From contig JAJYNX010000103.1 of NCBI GenBank assembly GCA_021786095.1, positions 1 through 50,297 on the forward strand: a DNA stretch of 50,297 nucleotides. Direction: 5' to 3'. A model generated the notes under the pieces. It did not search any database. It saw only the letters and a list, made by a program, of their open reading frames with translations, and was not told where the DNA came from. Position numbers and translations under genes: made by a program. This DNA comes from Actinomycetes bacterium (lineage in GTDB: Bacteria > Actinomycetota > Acidimicrobiia > Acidimicrobiales > RAAP-2). Shown piece by piece: positions 35,685-38,635 of this stretch; the stretch's first letter is position 1, and every line of letters begins with the position of its first letter.

Positions 35685-36527
35685 TCACGCGAGGGGCGCG
35701 ACGTCGAAGGCGTTCACCGCGTCGTCGAGTGACACGACGGTGAGCGGGTCGATCGTTTGGGAGCTCGACGCTGGGACGACGACGGTGCCCCAGGCCGTGA
35801 AGCCGATGGCGTGGGCCGCGAAGCGCAGCGGCCCCTCGGTCACGGTGACGTCGACGATTCCCGCGCCGTGGGCGTCGAGGGCGGCGCGCTGCATACGCTC
35901 CATTGCCGTGGAGCGGGCATCGTAGAGCGCCGCGGTGTAGTTGGTCAGTTCGACGTTCTGGGTCTGCTGGCGCAGGGCCGCCCCGACCGCGCGGCGCGGT
36001 GCGTAGGTGAAGCTCGCCCCAACCGCCAGGGCGACCGGTCGCCAGCCGCCCGCGAGGAGCAGAGCGAAGTCCCGCGCGGACAGGTCCGAGACGAAGACCT
36101 GTCCGTCGGGGATCCGGGGTGCGTCAGCGGGCGCCACGGCCGTACCGACCAGCTCGACCTCGATGTGTGAGGCCAGTATGCGCCGTTCGACGTGGACCCC
36201 CACGACACCGTGAGCCCCGACCGCCACGGCCTCCGCGTGCAGGCGCGCCACGGCGTGCGCGAAGGCGCGCGCGTGGGCGCGCGAGGCGAGTTCGATTTCG
36301 CCGCTGCCCCACGACCAGATCGACGAGGGTACCGACTGCACCGAGAGCCCGACCACGAGGTCGCGGGGGGCCCAGGCGACGCTGTGCAGGATCAGCGTCT
36401 CGTCGATGGTCAGGTCAGAGGTGAGTCCCGCGCGAGCGCCTCCGACGGGCTCGGCCACCGCGAGAGCCTGGCGCACGGCGGCGGGGAGGTCGCCGGACGC
36501 GTTGGGGGACGGTGCGGCGCCGGTCAC
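35685..36527 (-). CDS. Two-unit YbjQ-like (UPF0145) protein, last gene of operon
   Basis: 280 aa with two tandem YbjQ/DUF74 'heavy-metal-binding' units. Unit 1 (about 33-133): LTSDLTIDETLILHSV, AEAVAVGAHGVVGVHVER, ELVGTAVAP. Unit 2 (about 145-250): FVSDLSARDFALLLAGGW, QNVELTNYTAALYDARSTAM, then GFTAWGTVVVP. Stand-alone YbjQ proteins of about 105 aa form pentamers; their function is unproven. This gene starts inside the end of the preceding one (ATGA). No signal peptide or membrane segment is visible. Unit 1 is the more divergent half. Confidence 0.75.
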   Translation of the reverse strand: MTGAAPSPNASGDLPAAVRQALAVAEPVGGARAGLTSDLTIDETLILHSVAWAPRDLVVGLSVQSVPSSIWSWGSGEIELASRAHARAFAHAVARLHAEAVAVGAHGVVGVHVERRILASHIEVELVGTAVAPADAPRIPDGQVFVSDLSARDFALLLAGGWRPVALAVGASFTYAPRRAVGAALRQQTQNVELTNYTAALYDARSTAMERMQRAALDAHGAGIVDVTVTEGPLRFAAHAIGFTAWGTVVVPASSSQTIDPLTVVSLDDAVNAFDVAPLA

Positions 36528-37429
36528 GACAGCGCGACCGTGGGTCGAGGGAAGGTGAGTGGGTCGGCGGGCCGCGCGCGGCGCACCCGGTTGCCGCGCA
36601 GCTGCACCTCGATGTCGATGTCGCCGGGTCCGGGCTCTCGCTCACTCACGCGTAGGTCGACGCCGTGGAGCTCGTCGCCGCGAAGCTGGCTGCGCGCCCG
36701 CTCGCGCACGAGCTGGCGCGCGCGGGTGCGCGCGCTGACGAGCTGGTCGATCTCGACCGAGTCCGAGGGGGAGGACCACAGCCCGGCTCCCGAGCCCATG
36801 AAGTACTCGGTCATGCACGAGGCCCAGACGCGGACCGACGAGACGACGGCGATCGTCGAGACCGGCGCGTACCCCGCCTCGAAGAGCTTGGCTAGGCGCT
36901 GGCCAGCCAGCGAGCTCGTCCACGGCGTCGCCGGGCGCTCGAGGCCGCTCACGACCACCGCAGTGCCGAGCAGGTGGAACTCGACGACGCCGGACTCGAC
37001 GAGCGAGGCGACGGTGTCCACAACGCCGACGACGCCGTGGGCGCCGAGGGCGGTGGCCTCTTCGAGCATGCGGCGGCTAGCCGCGTCGTAGCCGTCGTGC
37101 CAACTCTGCTCGACCCACGTCTGCTCGTAGTTTTGGCCCCACTGGCGGTGTTCGGCGGACACCATGGCGTGGGGACACTGGTAGTTCTCCACGTACCCGC
37201 CGCGCGCCACGCTGGGTGCGAGACCCGACGCGAATCCCATACCCAGACCCCCGCCGAATCCCGTTCGCGCCGGGCCGTAGCCCCACTGCATCGCGCAGAA
37301 CCCCTGGACGAGCCCAACCGGCTCGAGGCCCATGGCGTGACACGCGGCCAAGTCCGCCACGCTCAGGCCGGAGGTGAACGCACCACCCTGGAGGCGGCCG
37401 TGTGCCGCTTCGGGCAGGTCGTCGCTCAT
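36524..37429 (-). CDS. Divergent two-unit YbjQ-like protein with Gly-rich insert
   Basis: 301 aa. Unit 1 opens with AFTSGLSVADLAACHAMGLE and ends LGAHGVVGVVDTVASL...FHLLGTAVV; between them is a Gly-rich insert (TGFGGGLGMGFASGLAP) not seen in the sister proteins. Unit 2 opens PWTSSLAGQRLAKLFEAGYA, but its second half (RARQLVRERARSQLRGDELHG) has lost the LGAxGVVG core. The ATG at 37429 shares a base with the upstream stop (TGATG), and its own stop overlaps the next start, so it is translationally coupled on both sides. The function is unknown; it looks like a specialised paralogue in a hetero-oligomer. Confidence 0.7.
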   Translation of the reverse strand: MSDDLPEAAHGRLQGGAFTSGLSVADLAACHAMGLEPVGLVQGFCAMQWGYGPARTGFGGGLGMGFASGLAPSVARGGYVENYQCPHAMVSAEHRQWGQNYEQTWVEQSWHDGYDAASRRMLEEATALGAHGVVGVVDTVASLVESGVVEFHLLGTAVVVSGLERPATPWTSSLAGQRLAKLFEAGYAPVSTIAVVSSVRVWASCMTEYFMGSGAGLWSSPSDSVEIDQLVSARTRARQLVRERARSQLRGDELHGVDLRVSEREPGPGDIDIEVQLRGNRVRRARPADPLTFPRPTVALS

Positions 37430-38226
37430 CAGTGGTCGAGGGAGATGATGGTCACGGGTGGGGTCAGCGTGATCTCGTCCGCCGTCCGGGTGACCGCCGT
37501 GCCCAGCGCCAGGAACTCGATCGTGTGCGACCCCCACTGGTGCGTCTTCTCCTCCAGGCGCGCGCCGACGACTCCCGCGGCCCCCAACTGACTCGCCTCG
37601 TCCTGCATACGCGTCATCGCCAGCTCGCGGGCCTCGTAGAGGGCTTGGGTGAAGTTGGGCAGCTCGACGTTCTGACCGGTGGTGGCCAGTGTCTGGCCCA
37701 GGCCCCGGTGGGCGATGTGGTAGACGCAAGTGCCCATGACCAGTCCCTGGGGGAGGTAGCCGGTGCGCAGGAGGGTCCAGAAGTCCTGCCCGGAGAGGTC
37801 CGACGTGAAGGGCTTGCCGAGGGCGTTGCGCCGAGAGACGCCGTCCTCGGCCTTTACCGCCGTGCCCACGGCGATGAACTCCGCGGCGTCCTTGCCCCAC
37901 TCGTAGTAGTTGACGTCGAGACGCACGCCGACGACACCGTCGGCACCCAACTCGCTGGCCTCCTCCTCCATCCGGGTCATGGCCAGCTCGCGGGCGTTGT
38001 ACATCGCCTCGGTGAGCTTGGTGAGCTCCTGGCTCTCACCCCACTTACGAGTCTGGAGTCCCGTGTGGTAGATCGACGAGCCCATCACCAGGCCGAGGGG
38101 GTGATATCCGGCCTCCTTGACCAGCAGGAACTCGTTCACCGAGAGGTCGGAGGTGAACAGGCCGTGCTCGATCTCCTCGAGGCGTCGTTCACTGGCCTCG
38201 GGCAGGTCCTTGGGTGCATCACTCAA
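37429..38226 (-). CDS. Canonical two-unit YbjQ-like (UPF0145) protein
   Basis: 265 aa and the best-conserved member. Both halves show the family pattern: FTSDLS(V/G)xxFxxL near 24 and 140, GYxPxGLVMG, (A/L)YxARELAMTRM(E/Q)(E/D)EAS near 77 and 195, LGAxGVVGxRL near 93 and 211, and EF(I/L)A(V/L)GTAV near 114 and 233. The two halves are clearly duplicates of one another. Starts inside the end of the preceding small gene (ATGA). Family knowledge: YbjQ proteins assemble as ring-like pentamers and are annotated as heavy-metal-binding without firm proof; there are no Cys/His clusters here to support metal binding. Confidence 0.82.
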   Translation of the reverse strand: MSDAPKDLPEASERRLEEIEHGLFTSDLSVNEFLLVKEAGYHPLGLVMGSSIYHTGLQTRKWGESQELTKLTEAMYNARELAMTRMEEEASELGADGVVGVRLDVNYYEWGKDAAEFIAVGTAVKAEDGVSRRNALGKPFTSDLSGQDFWTLLRTGYLPQGLVMGTCVYHIAHRGLGQTLATTGQNVELPNFTQALYEARELAMTRMQDEASQLGAAGVVGARLEEKTHQWGSHTIEFLALGTAVTRTADEITLTPPVTIISLDH

Positions 38227-38621
38227 CTGGTTCCCCCTATCACGATGTGTTCCAGCGCCGCGCGAGCCCGGTCGCTGTGGGCGGCCTCCTCACGCAGCGC
38301 GTCGAGCAGTCGCACCAGCCAGGACTGAAGGTCGAGGGCCTCGTTGCGAATCCTGATGCCGCCCGAGACGTGGGCGACCTGGCAGCGCACGTCTCCGTCG
38401 TCCAGCGCGGCGGTGAACTCGTCCGAGCCCAGCGCGACCGTCACGGCACTGACCGTCGCGTCGCGGCGCCGCCGGCCACCCCGCTGCACCCGAAGGCGCG
38501 TGCCCAGGGTGTCGGCGAGCTGGTCCGCGAGGCTCGTGAGCAGGGCGGTCAGGTCGGCGGCGTTGGCCCGAAGAGACGCGGCGGCCAGCGCCAGGTCGTA
38601 GGAGTCGTCGGGTGGCGCCAT
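38223..38621 (-). CDS. Conserved hypothetical protein, first gene of YbjQ operon
   Basis: 132 aa, not recognised. An N-terminal helical segment (LALAAASLRANAADLTALLTSLADQLADTL) is followed by a beta-rich part (VSAVTVALGSDEFTAALDDGDVRCQVAHVSGGI) and a C-terminal helix (WLVRLLDALREEAAHSDRARAALEHIV). This might be an adaptor or scaffold for the YbjQ proteins. ATG 38621 is chosen because TAAGGT lies eight bases upstream and the helix begins directly; its stop overlaps the next start by four bases. The tight coupling suggests a protein that works with the YbjQ products. Confidence 0.65.
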   Translation of the reverse strand: MAPPDDSYDLALAAASLRANAADLTALLTSLADQLADTLGTRLRVQRGGRRRRDATVSAVTVALGSDEFTAALDDGDVRCQVAHVSGGIRIRNEALDLQSWLVRLLDALREEAAHSDRARAALEHIVIGGTS

Positions 38622-38629
38622 CGTCGCCC

Positions 38630-38635
38630 ACCTTA
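38630..38635 (-). promoter_or_regulatory. -10 box TAAGGT of YbjQ operon
   Basis: Minus strand: TAAGGT, eight bases, ATG 38621. It is the only promoter-like box seen for the four overlapping genes. Confidence 0.45.

Follow-up and report, generated by a model that had tools for sequence, protein, structure and literature searches.

The YbjQ/UPF0145 family (DUF74, PF01906) is widespread, with a match in 11 of 14 control genomes, and structures of its members have been solved since 2005. No paper that settles the function of the family was found in the open-access PMC literature. The members with the structures 1y2i, 1vr4 and 3qkb are reported to be pentamers (PMC2954204, PMC4092069). Two other described groups bear on the locus presented here: the phage shock protein systems, in which PspA is combined with PspAA, CesT/Tir-like chaperones and band-7 proteins according to a paper whose main text does not contain the name YbjQ (PMC11237479), and RcsF (2y1b, 2l8y), an outer-membrane lipoprotein of one unit with an envelope-stress theme.

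The window that we analysed, a stretch of DNA of 50,297 nt, holds on its minus strand an operon of four genes in the order S-A-B-C. S (38621..38223, ATG start) encodes 132 residues, A (38226..37429, TTG start) 265 residues with two YbjQ units, B (37429..36524, ATG start) 301 residues with two diverged YbjQ units, and C (36527..35685, GTG start) 280 residues, again with two units. Lengths, order and positions of these overlapping genes are as the first-pass annotation had given them; of the junctions it had described as TGATG/ATGA, TGATG is present between A and B, whereas the others read TTGA (S/A) and GTGA (B/C) and not ATGA. The single TAAGGT box that it had placed ahead of the operon is present on the minus strand at 38635..38630, a -10-like sequence 8 nt upstream of the ATG of S, and from this position it would produce a leaderless transcript. 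Of 106 S genes, 64 have a TANNNT box 5-10 nt upstream of a start codon close to the one expected for S; for arbitrary start codons the figure is 35 of 2377 (1.5%), the chance level of the S-gene test itself being a few times higher than 1.5% because several start codons per gene were eligible.

Each of the three larger proteins consists of two YbjQ-like units, as had been proposed from the sequence. Against a curated Pfam cut-off of 23, PF01906 matched A at 1.2e-25 (90.6 bits, two stretches), C at 2.4e-12 (47.8 bits, two stretches) and B at 5.6e-6 (27.3 bits, one stretch). Pfam thus detects five of the six units, and the second unit of B was recovered by profile-profile comparison only, the two halves of B matching the A-unit profile with probabilities of 99.8% and 99.3%, respectively. 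On the minus strand, the units of A occupy 37846..38163 (about residues 22-127) and 37480..37818 (about residues 137-249), and those of C 36129..36431 (about residues 33-133) and 35760..36107 (about residues 141-256). In B, the Gly-rich insert and the degraded second unit described earlier are both present: the alignment places the insert, with a conserved C85-P-H, in unit 1 at 37148..37285, and unit 2 (36566..36937, about residues 165-288) has a conserved C205. In a tree, a single clade (support 0.884) unites the second units of A, B and C with those of lone double proteins, which indicates that the A, B and C genes descend from one double gene.

PF01906 matches all 35 A proteins of alignment A2, and the own assembly (96% complete) has five PF01906 matches, every one of them inside this operon. 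A is the most conserved subunit, with 34 relatives that are 49-84% identical to it. Of the three double proteins, A was modelled (pLDDT 83.5, pTM 0.81), and the closest solved folds are YbjQ 1y2i (Foldseek 2.6e-4) and 1vr4 (4.0e-4). RcsF has a similar fold over a single unit (Foldseek 9.8e-3; VIA Z 5.2, rmsd 3.6, 81 aligned), but A is a two-unit protein that lacks a hydrophobic segment; no long hydrophobic stretch occurs in S, A, B or C. The YbjQ-like domain (PF23025) of C2 domain-containing protein 5, a eukaryotic protein with a membrane role, matched A (0.073) and B (0.13) weakly and below the Pfam cut-off, while one relative of A matched it at 8.2e-5. Each half of A has the fold of YbjQ/UPF0145 proteins, and A, B and C all score above the Pfam cut-off. 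The three differ from the single-unit proteins in that each chain holds two units, an operon can encode up to three paralogues, S is a constant partner, and A has a set of Cys and His residues. Moreover, the GG that precedes a helix in 29 of 29 single-unit YbjQs is missing there in the alignment of A. Given two units per chain and the absence of this GG from A, the sequences mark A, B and C as multi-unit YbjQ relatives and not as standard members of the family.

The Cys-His set lies in unit 2 of A, in a stretch (37525..37728, minus strand) with C167, H170, H173, H229, W231 and H234 that we regard as a candidate metal or thiol site. C167, H170 and H229 occur without exception in the 115 A proteins and H234 in 114, with one gap, whereas each of the 29 single-unit YbjQ proteins (drawn from 30 loci, L207 having no unit match) departs from A in all four of these columns. 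The order of the strands suggests that the four side chains may meet in space. B and C keep the set only in part: 38 of 68 B proteins have a Cys aligned with C167, and in C most of the set is replaced, although 58 of 68 proteins have a His aligned with H234.

The first-pass annotation had raised co-occurrence of the four genes in other genomes as a point to check, and they do recur in order. A true C gene, defined by a C-profile score above 280 (L062, L147, L148 and L149, near 175, being put in the other class), is present in 67 of 119 related loci, in 66 of which S lies in the piece read, and the order S-A-B-C is kept there with overlaps or short gaps. This total, from which L081 was excluded as having no module gene, contains some repeats, as do the totals of 115, 106 and 134 used elsewhere in the text, with at least five duplicated contigs (judged by length, L141, L143, L149, L154 and L155 are the same contigs as L056, L048, L062, L052 and L051, respectively). 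From at least 567 relatives the 80 top-ranking ones were kept, so that the named loci lean to close relatives. Shorter forms (S-A, S-B-A and B-A-S) occur in Solirubrobacteraceae, in Dormibacterota-type genomes and on Streptomyces plasmids, L239, L240, L246 and L247 being two-gene S-A modules. The six units proposed earlier are therefore real in this operon but not constant, an S-A module having two and an S-B-A or B-A-S module four; six is the large form.

Among 296 Actinomycetota genomes, A was found in 10, including all eight with S. In 151 genomes of another phylum (that of genome G400), full-length A occurs in 26, S in 28 and both in 26, six genomes with a single-unit match only (about 1e-31) not being scored as A. 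A sample of 118 genomes of the order gave 33 matches to B (E <= 0.001; one of them, in G030, short and weak) and 37 to S (E <= 0.01), with both in 29; in the eight S-only genomes the S match is weaker than 1e-4 in six, 9.7e-5 in one and 3.4e-12 in G047. Chance or artefact was rejected, since the gene order and the co-occurrence hold in different families and phyla, and by sequence the gene set is real, old and spread beyond Actinomycetota. The idea that the module replaces ordinary YbjQ was rejected, since a single-unit YbjQ coexists with the module in some genomes, including G110 and G032.

The small partner S belongs to no recognised family, as the first reading had it: profile searches assigned it no Pfam or NCBIfam family, and NCBIfam gave four weak matches among 27 S proteins, each in a single member, the best (8.8e-4) to an RNA-binding protein model. 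Its predicted fold is a-a-b5-a-a. Foldseek against the PDB gave no match at 0.001 or better; VIA listed, at Z 6.0-6.7, entries that contain CBF-beta, frataxin or a subunit of Mediator (77-87 aligned, rmsd 3.3-4.1), which is within the tool's stated noise; the best BFVD match (2.0e-3, TM 0.31) was to an unnamed protein, and the best PDB sequence-profile match (0.015) was to FliE. S may still have a described fold that escaped these searches. We also considered S as PspAA (PF22743), which was not supported, hhalign against four PspAA tails only giving a probability of 0.1% over 8 columns; PF22743 is likewise absent from the families matched by 27 S proteins at E 0.1. For a CesT/Tir-like chaperone, no Pfam or NCBIfam chaperone match and no significant match in the fold searches was obtained. 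An extra VIGG-like tail on S accompanies true C, being present in 63 of 66 loci with true C versus 4 of 40 other loci.

PspA/IM30 is a well-studied ESCRT-III relative, and its gene is repeatedly joined to S. The module adjoins a pspA gene in 15 of 134 loci, against 0.52 expected at the PspA density of the own genome (a single genome), and the other 119 have no adjoining pspA. Ten of the 15 neighbours, checked separately, match PF04012 at 5.5e-25 to 8.6e-38. An in-frame start of S overlaps the pspA stop in six loci (L049, L059, L129, L130, L139 and L144), and in three of these the overlapping start is the only one near. These six do not include L105, where the nearest usable S start is 7 nt behind the pspA stop, or L124, where an overlap would need S to be extended by about 60 residues. 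In five of the 15, pspA is head-to-head or convergent with the module and not in one operon with it. With five cases, PF04012 leads the family tally of the immediate neighbours (102 of 104 were scanned, L237:2-4087 and L159:4738-5052 being left out), and BLAST clustering of flanking genes gave otherwise generic families and one cluster of 341 aa that is PspA. In the 118-genome sample, PspA is present in 31 of 33 genomes with a B match versus 60 of 85 others, and two PspA in 6 of 33 versus 1 of 85, statistics that ignore kinship. There is no pspA in the window, the single PspA of the genome being on another contig (C63), and PspA was not found in the module genomes G043 and G048 (93% and 90% complete). 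A PspA tree groups the own-genome protein broadly with the PspAs of modules (the nearest at 57%), but we draw no conclusion from it, because 14 of 41 PspA loci, which had no HMM match, are absent. We found no report of a YbjQ-PspA link in the open-access PMC literature; among the papers listed, PMC6414554 contains both names, with YbjQ in a proteome table.

The YbjQ-like halves, the co-occurrence of the four genes and the fixed partnership with S together make a dedicated hetero-oligomeric assembly a sound inference from sequence. We propose, tentatively and at something short of an even chance, that this is a multi-subunit assembly of YbjQ proteins and S with PspA as its likely client, at the cytoplasmic face of the membrane. 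The operon would give one soluble complex of double YbjQ proteins, in which A is the core, ligand-holding subunit, with its Cys-His set at one end of the second unit, B and C, degenerate copies that arose by duplication, pair with A, and S is an obligatory small partner that helps assembly or couples the complex to the client. That client would most likely be PspA, an ESCRT-III-like membrane-repair protein, which the assembly may regulate or scaffold under envelope stress, A perhaps sensing metal or redox state. The arrangement would resemble phage shock systems in that pspA is joined both to a small protein of no known enzyme family and to larger proteins that look like scaffolds, but would differ in that S matches neither PspAA by profile nor a Pfam chaperone family and that most modules have no adjoining pspA. 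A more specific picture, to which we give a chance of only about a third, is of a PspA-associated envelope-stress machine of stacked or ring-shaped hetero-oligomers, with ligand-gated core subunit A, degenerate structural subunits B and C and dedicated adaptor S, that controls PspA filament assembly across Actinomycetota, bacteria of the Dormibacterota type and possibly some Cyanobacteriota.

The Cys-His set also fits another explanation, unlikely in our view if well worth weighing, in which A holds a transition metal, selenium or a soft ligand through C167, H170, H229 and H234, B and C shape a cage or ring, S is a chaperone and the adjacency to pspA is secondary. Beyond the invariance of the set in A and its absence from the 29 single-unit proteins, this would account for the two cysteines retained by B (C85 in 97% and C205 in 99% of non-redundant B proteins), and it agrees with a pentameric selenium-binding protein of the same fold (PMC4092069) and with the Pfam name of the family, "putative heavy-metal-binding". 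No assay was found behind that name, however, the contact of the four side chains is deduced from strand order, the 25 neighbour families listed of 107 include no metal-transport or resistance family, and the pspA genes joined to S are left unexplained.

The partial distance correlations, in which the other two proteins are held fixed, are 0.55 for A-C, 0.47 for B-C and 0.19 for A-B, those of S being weak (S-A 0.08, S-B 0.24, S-C 0.26). The low values for S and A-B, together with the S-A modules, which indicate that S and A suffice in some genomes, would suit A, B and C as separate homo-oligomers for different ligands, with the operon as a mere expression unit and S serving A alone. We consider this improbable: B and C accompany A in the loci read, barring cut contigs and L065, where B is on a different contig from the A of the same genome; the gene order is conserved and the A-C and B-C correlations exceed that of A-B; the sites of B and C are degenerate, as expected of structural partners, though with the Cys of B and the His of C noted above; and the tail of S goes with true C. 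Two Streptomyces plasmids and a plasmid of Aulosira carry copies, which could point to a mobile conflict or defence module, yet this is very improbable given the order-wide presence of the genes in conserved order, the lack of a PHROG family for S, a single weak PADLOC match (type I specificity, 0.0065) among 27 members, and the lack, within the sensitivity of the tools, of any match to A among phage records and viral contigs.

The gene set is thus widespread and apparently undescribed in the open-access PMC literature. Beyond the first-pass annotation, the analysis adds the association with pspA, a Cys-His set that has its centre in A and the spread outside Actinomycetota. The module has a fixed partner family in S, its subunits form a hierarchy that includes a candidate active site, and its genes are repeatedly linked to pspA; these features open the orphan YbjQ fold to direct tests, for which Streptomyces strains with annotated B-A-S copies, such as NBC_01294 and NBC_01276, are possible hosts. 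If the PspA-associated envelope-stress machine outlined above is real, it would place the widespread YbjQ/UPF0145 proteins in a physiological context for a first time.

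The operon (minus strand, 35685-38635) encodes a small protein, S (132 aa), and three double-YbjQ proteins, A (265 aa), B (301 aa) and C (280 aa), and our sequence check placed all four genes where the first-pass annotation had put them. Start and stop codons overlap at the gene junctions (TTGA, TGATG and GTGA). A TAAGGT box on the minus strand (38635-38630) lies 8 nt ahead of the first ATG (38621), a spacing that, judged from sequence, is the layout of a leaderless transcript. Of 106 relatives, 64 have a TANNNT pattern 5-10 nt from a start codon close to where S should begin, a test with several candidate starts for S, versus 35 of 2377 arbitrary start codons in the control.

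A, B and C all pass the Pfam cut-off for YbjQ (PF01906/UPF0145). Both halves of A and of C match, but of B the first half alone; in profile comparisons with the A unit, B's first half, which is broken by a Gly-rich insert, scored 99.8% and its second half 99.3%. Since Pfam and the A-unit profile together cover both halves of each protein, the proposed six YbjQ-like units are confirmed, five by PF01906 and the last by the A-unit profile. All five PF01906 matches in the assembly lie inside the operon. In a tree built from 96 units before short rows were removed, 12 single-unit YbjQs separated from the other units, and one clade (support 0.884) gathered the second units from A, B, C, the lone proteins and two B-like proteins; first units were poorly resolved. 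This topology agrees with a single internal duplication and gene duplications after it. One locus (L241, G459:C1:947000-957000) encodes a single-unit protein of ~215 aa that closely resembles A's second unit, and six genomes of a Dormibacterota-type phylum have a match of this kind only; such a protein may resemble the ancestor predating the internal duplication. Another actinobacterial family (f90) has paired adjacent single-unit YbjQ matches (G354:C2:217926-218761 and G273:C4:335446-336236).

The module, S with one or more double-YbjQ genes, recurs widely. In a sample of 118 genomes of the order, 33 encode B-like proteins (E <= 0.001) and 37 encode S-like proteins (E <= 0.01), with 29 genomes common to both. 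Reading 40 loci from this sample and 80 named loci (the top 80 among at least 567) yielded 119 that carry genes of the module. A true C (a third gene scoring >280 with the C profile) is present in 67, and in 66 of these the stretch read includes S; B plus an A-like or intermediate third gene occurs in 20, only two double genes in 23, and 9 are other or cut. S usually lies ahead of A and at times after it; two loci (L161 and L235) have a tandem S pair ahead of A, then B and an A-like gene. Across 296 Actinomycetota, A occurs in 10 genomes and S in 8, all among those with A; the two with A alone (G209 and G261) carry a lone subfamily. In 151 genomes of the Dormibacterota-type phylum, full-length A occurs in 26, S in 28 and both in 26 (simple hypergeometric 3e-27, uncorrected for kinship). 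The minimal form is S-A alone (L239, L240, L246 and L247). Two Streptomyces plasmids carry B-A-S, with A and B annotated as 'heavy metal-binding domain-containing protein' and S as 'hypothetical protein', and an Aulosira laxa plasmid has S-like and A-like stretches, the latter (L222, 8634-9723) not open in the printed frame and annotated only as short hypothetical genes. Searching phage records and viral contigs with A gave 0 matches. Lone double YbjQ proteins without B, C or an adjoining S (L078, L082, L072, L243 and L244) occur in several genomes, two of them of ~5 Mb (G209 and G261); in one (L173, the gene of L244) the second unit retains the equivalents of A's C167, H170, W231 and H234. 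In G032, a one-contig genome of 2158157 bases, ~40 kb separate S from the double YbjQ gene (L078 and L245).

Against 34 relatives, the window's A shows 49-84% identity. C167, H170 and H229 (numbered as in the window's A) are present in 115 of 115 A proteins, and H234, W231 and E237 in 114, the remaining one having a gap. None of 29 single-unit YbjQs from Actinomycetota has any of C167, H170, H229 and H234; 10 have Glu at the E237 position. The 20 third genes other than true C retain C167 in 16, H170 in 10, H229 in 16 and H234 in 13. In C, Ser stands in place of C167 in 63 of 68 proteins and H170 and H229 are usually substituted, but 58 have His at the H234 column. Of 68 B proteins, 38 have Cys at the C167 column, with the other positions scattered; B retains C85 (97%) and C205 (99%). 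In the AlphaFold model of A, strands 157-170, 218-228 and 235-247 lie around helix 190-213, a strand-helix-strand crossover that would make the first two strands parallel, so that residues 167-173 and the 229-234 hairpin are inferred to sit at the same end of A.

S gave no convincing family when 27 members were searched against Pfam, nor against NCBIfam, PADLOC or PHROG. Its model (pLDDT 82, pTM 0.70) has two helices, five strands and two helices, and fold searches returned no reliable match. An extra tail with a VIGG-like motif is found in 63 of 66 true-C loci versus 4 of 40 elsewhere, and because the tail tracks true C, its distribution suggests that it contacts C; this distribution may also reflect a single inherited event.

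PspA/IM30 (PF04012), an ESCRT-III-like membrane-repair protein, was the family found most often when 102 immediate neighbours were scanned with Pfam (5; next families <=3). Profile searches of the flanks found pspA in 15 of 134 loci, adjoining the module in every one, and PF04012 was separately confirmed for 10 of the 15; about 0.5 would be expected, because the flanks total 1.10 Mb and our genome carries a single PspA in 2.1 Mb. Ten loci have pspA upstream of S in the same orientation. In six of them (L049, L059, L129, L130, L139 and L144) the pspA stop shares bases with an in-frame start of S (ATGA or GTGA), and L049, L059 and L139 offer no other start nearby; the gap is 7 to ~44 nt in L105, L050 and L152, and ~180 nt to the aligned S start in L124. 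Other loci are head-to-head (L055, L083 and L237) or have a convergent pspA at the module's far end (L161 and L235). The joining of pspA to S recurs in several lineages. In the order sample, 5 of 33 module genomes, from four families, have an adjoining pspA (G020, G049, G092, G105 and G109). Of the 33 module genomes, 6 have two PspA genes and 31 have at least one, versus 1 and 60 of the 85 others, both comparisons uncorrected for kinship. Speaking against the link, the PspA search found none in two module genomes (G043 and G048).

No paper on multi-unit YbjQ operons was found in the open-access literature searched. The enzyme with thiamin phosphate synthase activity is YjbQ, which is unrelated to YbjQ despite the resemblance of the names. 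PMC7084401 credits this activity to YbjQ. Two sources describe YbjQ pentamers and a fold that YbjQ has in common with RcsF, DUF1471 and a selenium-binding protein (PMC2954204; PMC4092069). A, B and C might form separate homo-oligomers, which we hold to be improbable. That the proteins form a metal or metalloid complex with no PspA role is also unlikely, if less so; the invariant Cys-His set of A speaks for it and the recurrent pspA junction against it. Most modules, the window's included, have no adjoining pspA, which counts against a role with PspA. The partners listed in a PSP survey (PMC11237479) are PspAA, CesT/Tir, band-7 and Toastrack, and the word YbjQ is absent from its main text.

The best-supported reading, which we favour tentatively, is a soluble hetero-oligomer. 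A would be the core subunit and hold a ligand, B and C would be its degenerate partners, and S would serve as an obligatory adaptor or chaperone. The assembly would cooperate with PspA at the membrane.
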